From assembly GCF_016406105.1 (NCBI RefSeq), contig NZ_CP066308.1, forward strand, positions 344,501 through 408,500: a DNA stretch of 64,000 nucleotides. Direction: 5' to 3'. Origin of the DNA: Brevibacillus composti (lineage in GTDB: Bacteria > Bacillota > Bacilli > Brevibacillales > Brevibacillaceae). Below, in pieces: positions 4,526 through 34,213 of this stretch (its first letter is position 1; each line of letters begins with the position of its first letter). The notes below the pieces were generated by a model. It was given only the letters and a program-made list of their open reading frames with translations, made no database searches and was not told where the DNA came from. A program made the translations under genes and the position numbers.

Positions 4526-5224
4526 ATGACGAGTACCAAAATCCTTGTTGCGGACGACGATCCCAATGTGTGTGAAATTATCCGTTTGTTCTGTTCCAAA
4601 CAGCAAATGGATCTGGTAGTGGCAAATGACGGGAAGCAGGCCTTGGAACTGACGGAAAAGGAGCTTCCTGATCTGATCGTTCTCGATGTCATGATGCCTC
4701 AGATGGATGGCTTTGAAGCATGCCGAGAAATTCGCAAAAAGTGGGACATACCGATTATTATGCTGACGGCAAAGGACGAGGAATTTGACCGCGTGCTCGG
4801 TCTGGAACTGGGCGCGGATGATTACGTGACCAAACCGTTCAGTCCGCGGGAGCTGGTCGCCCGGATCCGGGCCATTATGAGAAGGTTGCAGCCGCGGGAG
4901 AAACAGGAGGAGGAACTCTGCAACCAGCTTGTGTTTGACCAGCTGGTGATCGATATCGACAAGCGGGAAGTGACGGCGGCGGAGGAGAAAGTCAATTTTC
5001 GCCCCAAAGAATTTGATCTTCTGGTCCACATGGCCCGGTCGCCGGGCAGCGTCTTTTCCCGTGAGCAATTGCTCGAACAGATATGGGGCTTTGACTATTT
5101 CGGCGATGCGCGCACGATTGATGTGCATATCAAGAAAATCAGGCAGCGGCTGCAAAAGCTGCCCTACGAGTGCATCCACACGGTCTGGGGAATTGGCTAT
5201 AAATTCGGAGTGGATGACACGTGA
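4526..5224 (+). CDS. OmpR/PhoB-family response regulator
   Basis: A 232-aa two-domain regulator. The receiver has the acidic pair DD near residue 10-11, the phosphorylation site D54 in VLDVMMPQMDG, T in MLTAKD and K in VTKPFSPRE. A winged-helix DNA-binding domain follows from about residue 130 (LTPKEFDLL-like FRPKEFDLLVHMA, then the RTIDVHIKKIRQRL recognition region). The ATG at 4526 has GGGAGGTTG 7 bases upstream; an upstream in-frame extension to 4313 runs through the preceding terminator and is rejected. The stop overlaps the start of the kinase gene (TGATG), so the two are translationally coupled. Confidence 0.94.
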   Translation: MTSTKILVADDDPNVCEIIRLFCSKQQMDLVVANDGKQALELTEKELPDLIVLDVMMPQMDGFEACREIRKKWDIPIIMLTAKDEEFDRVLGLELGADDYVTKPFSPRELVARIRAIMRRLQPREKQEEELCNQLVFDQLVIDIDKREVTAAEEKVNFRPKEFDLLVHMARSPGSVFSREQLLEQIWGFDYFGDARTIDVHIKKIRQRLQKLPYECIHTVWGIGYKFGVDDT

Positions 5225-6666
5225 TGGGGATGTCCAAAAGCATTTTTCGCCGCCTCTTGTTCAGCTTTTTGGCGACCGTGCTCATCGGCTTGGGCTTTTC
5301 CGGCATCCTCATCTCCTTTTTTGCCAAAGAGTATATCTACAATTCCCAAAAGGAAATGATGCTGCGCCATGCCAAAAAAGTGAATGCGGCCATCCAGAAC
5401 TACAGCGAGGTCAATCAGCCTCTCCTGGGAACGCTGGTATTGCTGGACGAGTCCTTTGACATGCGCATCTGGCTGTTTGATCGAAACGGAAAAATTGTGG
5501 CCACTTCGATGAAGGATGAGGTCTTTACTGGATTAGCCGTGGCCCGCTCCATCGCGGATTCGGTCCTGAAAGGAAAAAATGCGGTCTCCGAGCTGAAGAT
5601 CGAAGGCCTGGAAGACCCGATGCTGTCGGTGGCGATTCCTTGGGGAAAAGGGGAGAAGGTGTACGGGGGAATCATCCTGCACGCCCCCATCGAGGGAGTG
5701 GAGCGCACCTTCGCCCATATGAGGGAGACGATCCTCTGGGCGACCCTGTTCGGGGTGCTGCTGTCGACGGCCATGGTCTCCTATGTCTCCTGGTCGATCT
5801 CCAGGCCGCTCCGTACGATTGAGCGGACGACGGCAGAGATCGGGCGGGGAAATTACACCGAGCGCGTGAAGGTAGACACGGCCGACGAGATTGGCGACCT
5901 GGCGCAGACGATCAATACGCTGGCAGGCAGACTGGAGCGTGTCGAACAGGAGAGACATCATCTGGAGCAGGTGCGGAACGATTTTCTCGCCAATGTTTCC
6001 CATGAATTGCGCACCCCGCTCACGGCGATGCAGGGCTTTCTGGAAGCCTTGCAGGACGGCCTCGTCGAAGAGGAGGAGGCCAGACAGAAATACTACGCCG
6101 TCATGTATGCGGAGACGCTGCACATCAGTCGCCTGGTGGACGATCTGATGGATTTGATGAAGCTGGAGAACAACGAACTGACCTTGGCCAAATTCCCGGT
6201 CGATGTCGGAGGTCTGATCGAAAAGGTGGCGCTCTCCTTCCGTCCGGAAGCGGAAGAGAAGGGGATCGAGATCACTGTCGAGCGGCCTGACACCCTGCCT
6301 AAAATCTACGCCGATAAAGACCGCATCGTGCAAATTATGAAGAATCTCGTGAAAAATGCGATTAAGTTTACGGATGAAGGCACCATTGCACTGTCTGCCC
6401 AGACGGATGGAAACTGGGTCGAAATCGCCGTCTCCGATACTGGGATCGGCATCTCGGCGGATGACCAGGAGCGCGTCTGGGAGCGATTTTTCAAAGTAGA
6501 TCGCGGCCGCTCCAAGAAAAACAAGGGAACGGGACTCGGGCTCGCCATCGTCAAAGAGCTGGTCGAGCTTCACGATGGTGAGGTAACCGTAGAAAGCGAA
6601 CCGGGCAAGGGCAGCCGTTTTGTGGTCCGATTGCCCGTCTTGGATGATCAGCGTATGATCTCCTGA
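5224..6666 (+). CDS. Membrane sensor histidine kinase
   Basis: About 480 aa. A membrane helix at residues 12-33, an extracytoplasmic sensor of about 130 residues, a second helix near 168-190, HAMP, HisKA with H260 in NVSHELRTPL, and HATPase_c with N (NLVKNAIKF), G1 (DTGIGIS) and G2 (GTGLGLAIVKE) boxes. It is the partner of the regulator just upstream. The start is ambiguous between GTG 5221, ATG 5224 and ATG 5230; GGAG at 5207-5210 is a little far from all of them. What it senses is not evident. The next gene downstream encodes a lipoprotein and may be a target. Confidence 0.93.
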   Translation: MGMSKSIFRRLLFSFLATVLIGLGFSGILISFFAKEYIYNSQKEMMLRHAKKVNAAIQNYSEVNQPLLGTLVLLDESFDMRIWLFDRNGKIVATSMKDEVFTGLAVARSIADSVLKGKNAVSELKIEGLEDPMLSVAIPWGKGEKVYGGIILHAPIEGVERTFAHMRETILWATLFGVLLSTAMVSYVSWSISRPLRTIERTTAEIGRGNYTERVKVDTADEIGDLAQTINTLAGRLERVEQERHHLEQVRNDFLANVSHELRTPLTAMQGFLEALQDGLVEEEEARQKYYAVMYAETLHISRLVDDLMDLMKLENNELTLAKFPVDVGGLIEKVALSFRPEAEEKGIEITVERPDTLPKIYADKDRIVQIMKNLVKNAIKFTDEGTIALSAQTDGNWVEIAVSDTGIGISADDQERVWERFFKVDRGRSKKNKGTGLGLAIVKELVELHDGEVTVESEPGKGSRFVVRLPVLDDQRMIS

Positions 6667-30357: not shown

Positions 30358-31017
30358 ATGAGCGGATGGCTCTCGCTTCTTCTAGTGTCCCTGGCGATCA
30401 GCATGGATAGCGTCACAGTCGGATTGACATACGGTCTCAGGAACATGCGGATTCCTCTGGCATCTCTCGCTGTCGTCGCTGGATGTTCCTTTGCCGTGGT
30501 ATATGGGGTCATGTGGGCCGGTTCGACGTTGGTCGATTGGCTGACGCCGGAGTGGGGCAAACAAATCGGGGCAGCCGTGCTGATCGGGATGGGCTTGATT
30601 ACGCTGTGGCGTCTGATCTCCGACCGGTCGGACGAGAATCAGCGGGAAGAGACGGAAACGGCGGATCAGGATGGTCCGGCGGTTGTCTCCCAATTTCGCA
30701 TATTTGGACTAATCATTCAGATTCTCAAGGACCCTTCGCATGCGGATACAGACAAATCCGGCCACATCATGGGCTGGGAAGCGGTCATGCTGGGGCTGGC
30801 CCTCTCGCTGGATGCCTTTGGCGCCGGGATCAGCTTGACGTTTTTAGGCTACCCACCCTTATCGGTAGCGGCCTGTATCGCTTTGATGAGCGGAGGCCTG
30901 CTGTTATTGGGCATTTCCCTGGGACGACAGGCAGGAAGATACAAATGGCTGTCACGCGTGACCTGGTTTCCGCCGCTATTGCTCATCTGTATCGGATTGG
31001 TGAAATTTATCACGTAG
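30358..31017 (+). CDS. ytaF: YtaF-type membrane protein (MntP-like)
   Basis: A 219-aa protein with six helices in two related halves; each half starts with a similar motif, LAISMDSVTVGLTYG and LALSLDAFGAGISLT, as in the manganese exporter MntP. B. subtilis YtaF is annotated as a sporulation membrane protein; transport of manganese or another ion is inferred. ATG 30358 is preceded by AAGAGGTGATC; an in-frame GTG at 30346 is inside that site. A terminator follows directly. Confidence 0.88.
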   Translation: MSGWLSLLLVSLAISMDSVTVGLTYGLRNMRIPLASLAVVAGCSFAVVYGVMWAGSTLVDWLTPEWGKQIGAAVLIGMGLITLWRLISDRSDENQREETETADQDGPAVVSQFRIFGLIIQILKDPSHADTDKSGHIMGWEAVMLGLALSLDAFGAGISLTFLGYPPLSVAACIALMSGGLLLLGISLGRQAGRYKWLSRVTWFPPLLLICIGLVKFIT

Positions 31018-31028
31018 AGGAATTGCGA

Positions 31029-31062
31029 AGCCCGTCCCTTCCATGCGAAGGACGGGTTTTTT
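31029..31062 (+). terminator. Rho-independent terminator of ytaF
   Basis: CCCGTCC (31031-31037) / GGACGGG (31050-31056), with further pairing in the loop, then six T. Confidence 0.88.
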
Positions 31063-31111
31063 GGGTAGACCGAAGGCTTTCCCTTTTTCATGGATGTTGG
31101 ATTCAGGGCTT

Positions 31112-31321
31112 GGGTGAGAAGAAGCGTGTTTCCCTGCTGCGCGACTCGCGCAGCCCTGCCCAGCGGAGCAGTGGATGGCGGGAAACAGGGGCGCAACCTC
31201 TGGGATGACCTCAGAGCGACACTGCTTTTGCGCACCCCCGCCAGCCGCTGCGGAGCGGACAGTCTATCATCCGTGCAGGGCGAAGACCGGAGCAGAGCAG
31301 GGAAATATGCTTCTTCTCCCC
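31112..31321 (+). ncRNA. Candidate structured RNA (about 210 nt) upstream of the calcium ATPase gene
   Basis: Bases 31116-31138 pair with 31296-31318 over 23 consecutive positions; two are G-U on the + strand (31126-31308, 31128-31306). GGG at 31112-31114 can extend the stem to CCC at 31319-31321. Inside are GCTGCGCG/CGCGCAGC (31135-31153), GGCGGG (31177-31182) with CCCGCC (31237-31242), GCGCAA/TTGCGC, CTCTG/CAGAG and CCGCT/AGCGG. AGCAGTG (31167-31173) and CACTGCT (31219-31225) give a competing or pseudoknot pairing. No protein reading is convincing. It lies about 100 bases before the ATPase start and after the ytaF terminator. It may be a cis-regulatory leader, a free RNA or a short mobile element with long inverted ends. 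Confidence 0.5.
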
Positions 31322-31417
31322 GCGGCTACTTTTTTAACATCGGCGGGACAGGTGGGTTATTTTGAGGCTCGTCTGCATAGATATGAGATGAAGTGTGAAC
31401 GTGATGGAGGGATACAG

Positions 31418-34213
31418 ATGGAGACGAGGCCCAGTCAAAAATGGTATTCGCTTGCGGCATCTGAGGTGACGAGAGCGCTGAAAAGCGACATGAACCAAGG
31501 ATTGTCGCAGGATGAGGCTGAGCGCAGGCTGTCCAAGAGCGGCGCCAACCAATTGGCGGCGAGCAAGCGAAAGCCGCTGTATGCAGTCCTGCTGGACCAG
31601 TTCAAAGATTTTATGGTCCTGATTCTGTTCGTCGCTACCCTGATTTCGTACTTTCTCGGTGAGTATCTCGATGCCATCACCATTATTGCCATTATTTTCA
31701 TTAACGGCGTGCTGGGCTTTATCCAGGAGGCGAGGGCTGAGCGCTCTTTGCAAGCCTTGAAGGATCTGGCATCTCCGATGGCGCGGGTGATCCGGGGCGG
31801 CCAGCTGTTCATGATTCCGGCCTCTCGTCTGGTGCCGGGGGACCTGGTCGTGCTGGAAGCCGGCGATCGCGTCCCGGCAGACCTGCGGCTGTTTGCCGCC
31901 AACCGGCTGGAGATTGAGGAGTCGGCCTTGACCGGGGAGTCTGTGCCTGTCGCGAAAACGGCCAAGCCGCTCGATGTTTCCTCTGCGGACGCCGTTCCGC
32001 TGGGCGATCAGAAGAACCTGGCCTTTATGGGGACGATGGTCACCGGAGGGACGGGCCAAGGACTGGTCGTCTCCACCGGGATGGCCACCGAGATCGGCAA
32101 GATCGCCCACCTGATGAATGAGGCGGAAATCGCTCAGACGCCGCTGCAGATTCGCCTGGAGCAGATGGGCAAAATCCTCGTCGTGGTGGCCGTCCTCCTG
32201 ACGGCCGTGGTCATCGGTGCCGGGGTGTGGCACGGCCACGACCTGTTTACCATGTTCCTCGCCGGCGTCAGCTTGGCTGTCGCAGCCATTCCCGAAGGCT
32301 TGCCCGCGATCGTGACTGTGGCGCTGGCACTCGGCGTACAGCGGATGATCAAGCGAAATGCCATCGTCCGCAAGCTGCCTTCTGTGGAAACGCTGGGCTG
32401 CGCGTCCGTGATTTGTTCCGACAAGACGGGGACCCTGACCCAGAACAAGATGACGGTGACGCATATTTGGCATGGGGACAGCATGTACGAGGTAGGGGGC
32501 AGTGGTTATGAGCCGCTTGGCGCCTTTACCCTGCAGGGCAAGCAAATTGCCCCCGACCGCGATCAGGTGATGGCAAAGCTGCTCCACATCGCCCAAAGCT
32601 GCAATAACGCCCAACTGACCTATGAGGAGGAAAAGGCCCGCCGCTTGCTCGGCATGGGCAAAACGGTGAAAAGATGGCAGGTCATTGGCGATCCGACAGA
32701 AGGGGCCTTGAAGGTCCTGGCCGCCAAGGGGCTGGGTTTTGAGGCCGAACGCGGAAAAGGCAGCAAGCAGGGCGTGCGGGTAGAAGAGCTGCCCTTTGAT
32801 TCCGAGCGCAAGATGATGTCCGTCGTGGAACAAATGGGGGACGGCAGCTATCAGCTCCTGACCAAAGGAGCGGCCGAGTCGCTTCTCTCCCGCTGCAGCC
32901 ACATCATGTGGAACGGACAGGTGCAGCCGCTGTCTGCCACGATGCGTCACCGGATATTGGACCAGACGGAAAAAATGGCGTCGCAGGCGCTCCGCGTGCT
33001 CGGCTTCGCCTATAAGCCGCTGCAAGGCTATCGCAGCGGCCAGTCGGCGGAACTGAAGGAGAGCGACCTGATTTTCGTCGGTCTGGCCGGGATGATCGAT
33101 CCGCCGCGCGAAGAAGTGCGGGAGGCGATCAATCTTTGCCATCAGGCGGGAATCAAGACGGTCATGATCACCGGCGACCACCGGATCACCGCCGAGGCGA
33201 TCGCCCGTCAGATCGGGCTGTTGCGCGGGTACGCCGAGATCATGGAGGGGCGGGAGCTGGACCGCCTCACCGATGAGGAGCTGGCCGAGCGTGCCGAGCG
33301 GGTCGCCGTCTACGCCCGGGTCTCGCCGGAGCACAAGCTGCGCATCGTGAAGGCTTTAAGAAGCAATGGACACGTCGTCGCGATGACCGGAGACGGGGTC
33401 AATGATGCCCCGGCCATCAAGACAGCCGATATCGGGATTGCCATGGGGATTACCGGCACCGATGTGACGAAGGAAGCCGCCGACCTCGTCCTGCGCGACG
33501 ACAATTTCGCCACGATCGTCGCCGCCGTCGAGGAAGGGCGCAACATCTACGATAACATCCGCAAGTTCATCCGCTACCTGCTCGCATCCAATGTCGGAGA
33601 AATCCTGGTGATGTTCTTTGCGATGATTCTGGGGATGCCTCTGCCGCTCGTGCCGATCCAGATTCTCTGGGTCAATCTGGTGACAGACGGTCTGCCGGCC
33701 ATGGCACTGGGCATCGATCCGCCCGAAGCGGATACGATGTACCAGAAGCCGCGCGACAAGAACGAGAACATCTTCGCCCGCGGACTGGGGTGGAAGATTA
33801 TCAGCCGTGGGTTTTTGATCGGCACGATGACCTTGCTGGCCTTCTGGCTGACCTGGCGGGAGAATCCGTCCGATCTGGTGCATGCACAGACCGTGGCCTT
33901 TGTCACTTTGGTCATGGCGCAGCTGATTCACGTCTTTGACTGCCGCAGCCAGCACAGCGTCTTTCATCGCAATATCTTTGAAAACAAGTACCTGGTGTGG
34001 GCGGTCATCTCTTCGATCGTACTGGTACTGGGCGTCGTCTACCTGGAGGCCCTGCAGCCGATCTTTAAGACAACCGATCTGTACATGAGAGACTGGGCAT
34101 TGATTCTCGTGGCTGCCGGCATTCCTACCTTTGTGGCAGGCATGGGAGGCGTGCTGCGCCGACGCCATTTCGGGGCAGCGGCCAGGTCGACTGCCCGTAC
34201 GGTTCGCTCCTGA
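31418..34213 (+). CDS. Calcium-transporting P-type ATPase (P2A type)
   Basis: A 931-aa pump of the YloB/PacL kind. It has the P2-type actuator (ALTGESVPV), PEGLPAIVTVALALGV in helix 4, phosphorylated D335 in SDKTGTLTQNKMTV, and GDGVNDAPAIKTADIGIAMG, plus the extra C-terminal helices of P2 pumps (IQILWVNLVTDGLPA carries the N/D site residues). It exports calcium or, in some relatives, manganese. ATG 31418 has GGAGGG upstream; the frame is open further upstream through the structured RNA and that extension is rejected. The following yunB lies 45 bases away, perhaps co-transcribed. Confidence 0.94.
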   Translation: METRPSQKWYSLAASEVTRALKSDMNQGLSQDEAERRLSKSGANQLAASKRKPLYAVLLDQFKDFMVLILFVATLISYFLGEYLDAITIIAIIFINGVLGFIQEARAERSLQALKDLASPMARVIRGGQLFMIPASRLVPGDLVVLEAGDRVPADLRLFAANRLEIEESALTGESVPVAKTAKPLDVSSADAVPLGDQKNLAFMGTMVTGGTGQGLVVSTGMATEIGKIAHLMNEAEIAQTPLQIRLEQMGKILVVVAVLLTAVVIGAGVWHGHDLFTMFLAGVSLAVAAIPEGLPAIVTVALALGVQRMIKRNAIVRKLPSVETLGCASVICSDKTGTLTQNKMTVTHIWHGDSMYEVGGSGYEPLGAFTLQGKQIAPDRDQVMAKLLHIAQSCNNAQLTYEEEKARRLLGMGKTVKRWQVIGDPTEGALKVLAAKGLGFEAERGKGSKQGVRVEELPFDSERKMMSVVEQMGDGSYQLLTKGAAESLLSRCSHIMWNGQVQPLSATMRHRILDQTEKMASQALRVLGFAYKPLQGYRSGQSAELKESDLIFVGLAGMIDPPREEVREAINLCHQAGIKTVMITGDHRITAEAIARQIGLLRGYAEIMEGRELDRLTDEELAERAERVAVYARVSPEHKLRIVKALRSNGHVVAMTGDGVNDAPAIKTADIGIAMGITGTDVTKEAADLVLRDDNFATIVAAVEEGRNIYDNIRKFIRYLLASNVGEILVMFFAMILGMPLPLVPIQILWVNLVTDGLPAMALGIDPPEADTMYQKPRDKNENIFARGLGWKIISRGFLIGTMTLLAFWLTWRENPSDLVHAQTVAFVTLVMAQLIHVFDCRSQHSVFHRNIFENKYLVWAVISSIVLVLGVVYLEALQPIFKTTDLYMRDWALILVAAGIPTFVAGMGGVLRRRHFGAAARSTARTVRS

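Follow-up and report, generated by a model that had tools for sequence, protein, structure and literature searches.

Introduction

HEARO and omega RNAs are structured RNAs that occur in many copies and are tied to mobile DNA, and BIMEs are laid out as two types of palindrome that alternate, with linkers between them. Among repeats that carry no gene, the MITE class is characterized, in PMC3446304 and PMC3733652, as short, dispersed and intergenic, with inverted ends and no coding capacity; PMC3733652 also gives 20-40 bp as the length of a REP unit.

The repeat described here occupies positions 31112-31321 of the window, the whole 64-kb stretch of Brevibacillus composti DNA under analysis. In common with MITEs, such as bcr1-bcr3 of the Bacillus cereus group, it is short, non-coding and dispersed through intergenic DNA, and inverted repeats are visible by eye at the outer ends of its paired units. 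It differs from them (from bcr1 by description, not by sequence comparison) in that each end is itself a branched hairpin of roughly 200 nt, which keeps its loop motifs and shows heavy compensatory change between families, and in that no parent transposon was found in the three long G008 pairs examined, nor a target site duplication at 49 B. brevis-type unit ends lying outside arrays. Like REP and BIME elements, the repeat has palindromes of two related types that face in alternate directions, as well as conserved linkers, and forms solos, pairs and arrays; unlike them, it has a unit of about 200 nt, five to ten times longer than the REP length given in PMC3733652, and shows no link to a Y1 transposase in 26 genomes of the genus. 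The likeness to HEARO and omega RNAs lies in its being structured and multi-copy, whereas none of 4227 Rfam models, those RNAs included, reached its family's gathering score on the repeat, so that the match to a known family that the first-pass annotation of the window had named as a test did not appear. We rate the repeat as being of the MITE/BIME kind, and the regulatory role proposed for it as unsupported.

The copy number reached in one genome, the occurrence in several Bacilli families and the lack of an Rfam match suggest an uncatalogued large class of structured mobile DNA. Such a repeat offers a handle on how short gene-less repeats spread, and its paired architecture a testable case of selection on fold; it can also mislead riboswitch searches, as happened with the window copy.

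Results and discussion

A structured repeat dispersed through the Brevibacillus composti genome

The first-pass annotation had placed a long-range stem enclosing inner stems at 31112-31321, and these are present in the sequence. Positions 31116-31138 and 31296-31318 are complementary over 23 positions, two of which set G opposite T on the + strand and therefore form the G-U pairs specific to + strand RNA that had been claimed. A stem search gave longer arms (31113-31159/31275-31321) and returned inner stems with the limits listed for the middle and inner stems in Table 1. The + strand of 31112-31350 folds at -122.2 kcal/mol, as against -93.3 +/- 4.9 kcal/mol in 200 dinucleotide shuffles (z = -5.86), none of which was equally stable. 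The T6 run and the GGCGGG after the hairpin fall outside the repeat.

Searching the B. composti genome with the window copy by BLAST yielded 68 matches at E up to 0.001, a count that takes in short and partial matches and those on the reverse strand, the full-length matches being 73-82% identical to the query. An iterated nucleotide HMM (nhmmer), applied to 32 stretches (31 fetched plus the window), gave 62 non-overlapping hits at E up to 1; 53 of these scored at least 30 bits and 34 were full length, at about 200 nt, the remaining hits being fragments or copies that keep mainly both ends. The window copy scored 154 bits over model positions 1-212. With a covariance model, R1, built from 31 copies among which it was itself included, it scored 203.8 bits on the + strand and 34.3 bits on the - strand.

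By our own gene calls, 23 of the 28 clusters in this genome overlap no called gene, and five, including the window copy, overlap a called frame. Their flanking genes are co-directional in 21 cases, convergent in five, divergent in one and unclassified in one; for comparison, the 41 gaps between genes in the window divide into 24 co-directional, nine convergent and eight divergent. The clusters comprise 12 minus-plus pairs (some with a partial member), one longer array, 14 single copies and one cluster with two plus members. Twenty-one of the 28 fall within the terminal half of the contig, closest to its two ends, and there a switch in gene strand suggests a replication origin.

Two related hairpins arranged head to head

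Copies of the repeat often form head-to-head pairs of two related hairpins, which we term P and Q. In genome G008, 44 of 55 listed rows form 22 pairs spaced within 3 kb, all of them in minus-plus order. In 20 of the 22 pairs one hairpin starts with GAAGAAG and its partner with GAAGAAT; at loci L177 and L196 both hairpins are of the GAAGAAG kind. In 19 pairs the linker measures 135 to 697 nt; the three others have linkers of about 1.1 to 2.4 kb. Outside the genus, 10 of 20 stretches hold a partner, and every such pair is head to head, with two pairs in succession at L324; among the rows listed for G087 and G127 there are 4 and 5 head-to-head pairs, respectively, and no other order.

In nine genomes that we label the B. 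brevis group (G002, G004-G006, G012-G014, G018 and G019), the pair constitutes a compact unit of 490-510 bp with inverted ends, composed of P, about 57 nt and Q, that stands singly or in tandem arrays, some of them joined by a conserved outer linker; the partner P is the more diverged. By eye, inverted outer ends are present at 67 distinct listed unit ends. Other layouts occur as well: L199 carries a same-direction array that leaves no room for P. Single hairpins have also been amplified alone, giving three P and one Q at L154, three Q and one P at L127, and one Q and two P at L117. By eye, P exists in orthologous copies at L243-L247 and L104 with either of two sequence blocks, as though sequence passed from copy to copy.

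The window copy stands alone, as a solo. Its left flank, GGGCTTGGGTGA, and right flank, CCCCGCGGCTAC, both look by eye like the ends that face outwards in paired copies, and the left one is unlike the inner flanks of such copies; flanks of the outer type on both sides fit a pair that may have been cut to one hairpin by internal deletion. The parts of the copy are given in Table 1.

Table 1. The window copy and its parts, in window positions.
Feature	Positions	Strand	Partner	Basis
Solo copy, flanked on each side by outer-type sequence	31106..31329	+		Flanks compared by eye
Full-length hairpin unit, ~200 nt, best covariance model match	31118..31317	+		nhmmer and cmsearch with R1
Outer stem, 5' side	31121..31135	+	31299-31313	Helix 1: compensatory change in 9/15 pairs
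Outer stem, 3' side	31299..31313	+		Covariation analysis, 37 genus copies
Conserved motif CAGCGGAG	31161..31168	+		5/8 columns (nearly) invariant, 46 sequences
Middle stem, 5' side	31168..31182	+	31237-31251	Helix 5: compensatory change in 13/15 pairs
Inner stem, 5' side	31188..31196	+	31228-31236	Helix 6: compensatory change in 5/8 pairs
Inner stem, 3' side	31228..31236	+		Covariation analysis, 37 genus copies
Middle stem, 3' side	31237..31251	+		Covariation analysis, 37 genus copies
Conserved motif GGAGCGGACAGT, facing CAGCGGAG	31252..31263	+		9/12 columns (nearly) invariant, 46 sequences

The repeat is scattered, its paired units have inverted ends, and it takes the form of pairs, arrays, solos and deleted copies, a pattern that fits a non-autonomous mobile element. 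The segment is a solo copy of a dispersed, non-coding repeat of conserved structure, which we consider to be probably a giant element akin to BIMEs and MITEs, non-autonomous and mobilized in trans. Its basic unit is the branched hairpin of roughly 200 nt, often doubled as P and Q head to head around a variable linker with inverted outer ends, and otherwise present in tandem arrays, solos and internally deleted copies; other machinery, acting in trans, would have carried such copies into intergenic DNA. A short mobile element was among the readings that the first-pass annotation had offered, and the dispersed copies, the inverted ends of paired units and differences in presence at orthologous loci (see below) support it.

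The fold is conserved while its sequence changes

An RNAalifold consensus of 37 copies from the genus contains 44 pairs, 28 of them with compensatory change; 96.8% of cells pair (97.5% in the outer stem), and none of 500 shuffles reached any of five measures. In an alignment of 46 sequences from several families, made by sequence alone at 48% mean identity, compensatory change appears in 17 of 18 predicted pairs; not one shuffle out of 500 did as well, and the covariation signal is lost when the partners are slid out of register. Such counts, within the genus and across families alike, can be inflated by shared ancestry and by exchange between copies. The first six pairs of the middle stem (helix 2 of the cross-family alignment) are all compensated across families. 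Compensatory change in homologues, which had been proposed as a test of the structure, is therefore present, and the fold is strongly supported, being kept although the sequence changes. Conserved along with it are the motifs CAGCGGAG and GGAGCGGACAG, both of which, with two changes allowed in each, occur in the expected order in 37 of the 46 rows, and in 19 of the 23 aligned copies from outside the genus.

We propose that pairing is kept while the stem sequences change because the fold is what is recognized, either by the mobilizing machinery or by a protein bound to a transcript. That pairing is under selection in stems of divergent sequence points to a fold that is read, either as RNA or as single-stranded DNA. 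If RNA is the form under selection, G-U pairs should exceed A-C mismatches on the transcribed strand. Counted on the strand that runs from the inner to the outer end, over pairs predicted on both strands, the ratio of G-U to A-C is 28:3 by cells and 15:0 by columns in 31 copies of B. composti, and 33:6 and 16:2 in the 37 genus copies, columns and copies in these counts not being independent of one another. In G008 it is 38:6 in P and 18:11 in Q, despite their opposite strands. Sets of the B. brevis type lean weakly the same way (67:49 and 51:32), and the 46-sequence set gives 19:3 or 125:135 depending on the setting. Folding energies are inconsistent between sets: in G008 the + strand is the better folder for 24 of 24 P and 19 of 20 Q, and it is so for 21 of 33 B. 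composti copies, but among B. brevis-type hairpins it wins in only 8 of 68 P and 18 of 79 Q. There is thus some lean toward RNA rather than single-stranded DNA as the selected form, and a free RNA, which the first-pass annotation had also considered, is a possible reading of the hairpin.

One extension of the mobile-repeat explanation, which we raise tentatively, is that the twin units are structured RNAs, expressed divergently and mobile among the genomes of Bacilli, whose fold recruits the protein that copies them. P and Q would then be transcribed outwards from the common linker, and the shared fold, with its internal loop of CAGCGGAG and GGAGCGGACAGT, would recruit a protein, of the host or of a mobile element, by which the unit is copied into new sites; the 3' limit of each RNA would fall in variable flanking DNA, making a guide-like use of the flank possible.

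The main rival to a mobile repeat is a family of RNAs maintained by the host, and a host-level RNA function could preserve the fold. P and Q would in that case be structured small RNA genes, divergently transcribed and with a cellular role, and the differences in copy number would be secondary. The G-U excess on the inner-to-outer strand in the B. composti and genus copies speaks for such genes, as do the lean of both G008 hairpins on their opposite strands and the joint retention of the two motifs outside the genus; yet the lean is weak, and the + strand seldom the better folder, in B. brevis-type sets, and the cross-family strand result changes with the setting. Two promoters, moreover, would hardly fit into linkers of about 57 nt, 31000-31450 contains a single promoter-like match, downstream of the window copy, and the arrays and solos resemble mobile DNA, so that we regard a host-kept gene family as rather unlikely.

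Insertion sites and the search for a partner transposase

A 3.2-kb query holding one G002 unit gave 24-41 matches in each of eight B. brevis-group genomes, counts that include matches to the query flanks; among those listed, unit matches elsewhere are 85-92% identical, mostly over 490-510 bp. At the orthologous locus, five of the eight other group genomes carry the full unit, two (G005 and G013) seem broken at contig ends, and G018 has a short stretch only, with no unit. Because the other group genomes share the insertion, the empty state of G018 may reflect deletion or loss. At a second locus none of eight genomes clearly lacks the unit, G006 and G004 missing 64-79 bases within it and G005 and G013 being split between contigs; neither of these two loci offered a clean empty site. 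Many copies lie at the same locus in several species, and much of the repeat family may therefore be old.

The first-pass annotation had anticipated that a mobile element would leave dispersed copies flanked by target duplications, and of these the copies were found, whereas duplications did not rise above chance. Of the 67 B. brevis-type unit ends, 49 stand outside arrays, and the words shared by their two flanks are no longer than those shared by mismatched flanks, 132 of 200 shuffles scoring as high; the sample contains no recent insertion, and duplications that are old and decayed could have escaped the test. Leaving in the 18 array members produces an apparent excess of duplications, caused by neighbouring units.

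No autonomous partner or transposase was identified. The three long middle sections of G008 pairs contain two different insertion sequences and, in one case, none, with no gene recurring, so that an autonomous parent inside long pairs found no backing in these three. At L178 (1860-3367) a Y1_Tnp gene (PF01797) lies between P and Q, beside what we take to be a TnpB-like gene; between P and Q at L177 (2449-3675) and in the L180 linker lie, presumably, an ISL3-like gene and an IS1595-like fragment. Against a mobile repeat stand the lack of a target duplication, clean empty site or transposase in the genomes compared, the 14 of 28 B. composti clusters that are single, and the existence of same-direction arrays.

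In favour of a giant BIME-like element spread by an IS200/REP-type Y1 transposase are the alternating orientation of the two hairpin types, the conservation of both inner and outer linkers, and the tandem arrays, which recall BIMEs, but we hold it to be quite improbable: Y1_Tnp is missing from 10 of 26 genus genomes, among them the copy-rich G012, G013 and G014 (24-29 unit-query matches each), the single Y1_Tnp gene of B. composti has no copy of the repeat within 1.5 kb, and units of about 200 nt are far from 20-40. A Y1 (RAYT) transposase as partner is accordingly not supported, and the absences are not decisive, because PMC3733652 notes no obvious correlation between such transposases and repeats.

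Distribution among Bacilli

The family extends beyond one species. R1 finds matches in 26 of 26 genus genomes (only three in G015 and one in G016), in 36 of 39 family genomes and in 26 of 200 class genomes, of which 14 belong to other families; as the self-complementary unit also lets R1 match the opposite strand of true copies, its match counts are inflated and are not copy numbers. A second covariance model with fewer pairs, R2, matched 24 of 31 chosen genomes, namely each of the 14 that were positive at class level and 10 of the 13 from the family, nine of the genomes not being independent, since R2 was built partly from them (G027, G033, G087, G091, G121, G127, G201, G207 and G211). It matched none of four genomes chosen as negatives and none of three family genomes missed by R1. 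Among the positives, G120 gave a single weak match, and the one copy in G121 is Brevibacillus-like and may have come from contamination or transfer. All 79 candidates scored in five genomes matched R2, and G087 has at least 57 places listed in one 4.1-Mb genome. A phylum-wide search with R2 was positive in 1 of 398 genomes, that of B. composti itself, with only six candidates scored per genome, and says little about Bacillota outside the class.

Of 72 named stretches, 70 are titled Brevibacillus. The others are L141, a Chloroflexota contig in which the HMM had no hit, and L147 (also L304), from a metagenome-assembled genome of Candidatus Carbobacillus altaicus, where a Brevibacillus-like copy on a 10.6-kb contig may likewise be contamination or transfer; G121 may be this genome. 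Neither the window copy nor one outside copy (L311) matched phages or plasmids, and two motif patterns found nothing in viral contigs; a phage or plasmid origin was set aside accordingly. The published work found, taken from top-ranked hits with coverage mostly of papers outside subscription, describes no such repeat in Brevibacillus, and as far as this literature and Rfam show, the structured repeat, which is real, is undescribed. One named Brevibacillus locus (L156) also contains two PyrR binding sites (RF00515), at 5121-5243 and 5833-5934.

The hairpin and the downstream ATPase gene

The first-pass annotation had offered a metal-responsive leader as one of its readings and had pointed to a competing, switch-like pair. 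Using the first 982 bases of the ATPase gene as query, we found one orthologue in each of the 26 genus genomes, and the hairpin lies directly upstream in two: the solo of B. composti and a P/Q pair in G008. The other 24 have no hairpin there; at L227 a copy lies more than 1 kb from the ATPase gene, beyond ytaF-like sequence, and at L225 and L226, both among the 24, the upstream neighbour is not ytaF. In the listed loci without the hairpin the upstream interval is short, with for example 68 and 41 bases in G024 and G001 between the terminator and the conserved region upstream of the ATPase gene. Across the whole window no Rfam family, yybP-ykoY and M-box included, reached its gathering score, and a permissive scan of 31050-31400 returned nothing. 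The competing AGCAGTG/CACTGCT pair does exist in the window copy (31167-31173/31220-31226), but it finds no support in the 37 related copies, where its positions pair at 63.3%, as against 63.9% in shuffled columns.

The hairpin is not a regulatory leader of the ATPase gene: its position and strong fold notwithstanding, a metal-responsive riboswitch deserves practically no credence for an element that is missing upstream of 24 of 26 orthologues, has many copies elsewhere in the genome, matches nothing in Rfam and does not conserve its proposed switching pair.

Two further observations concern the window copy. Its GCTGCGCG/CGCGCAGC hairpin, with a one-base loop, is unique among 31 aligned copies of B. 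composti, most of the others having GCGACT-GTGGAGCCC at that place. The open frame of the ATPase gene, 31175-34213, can be read from within the repeat hairpin, so that annotation may extend the gene into the repeat.
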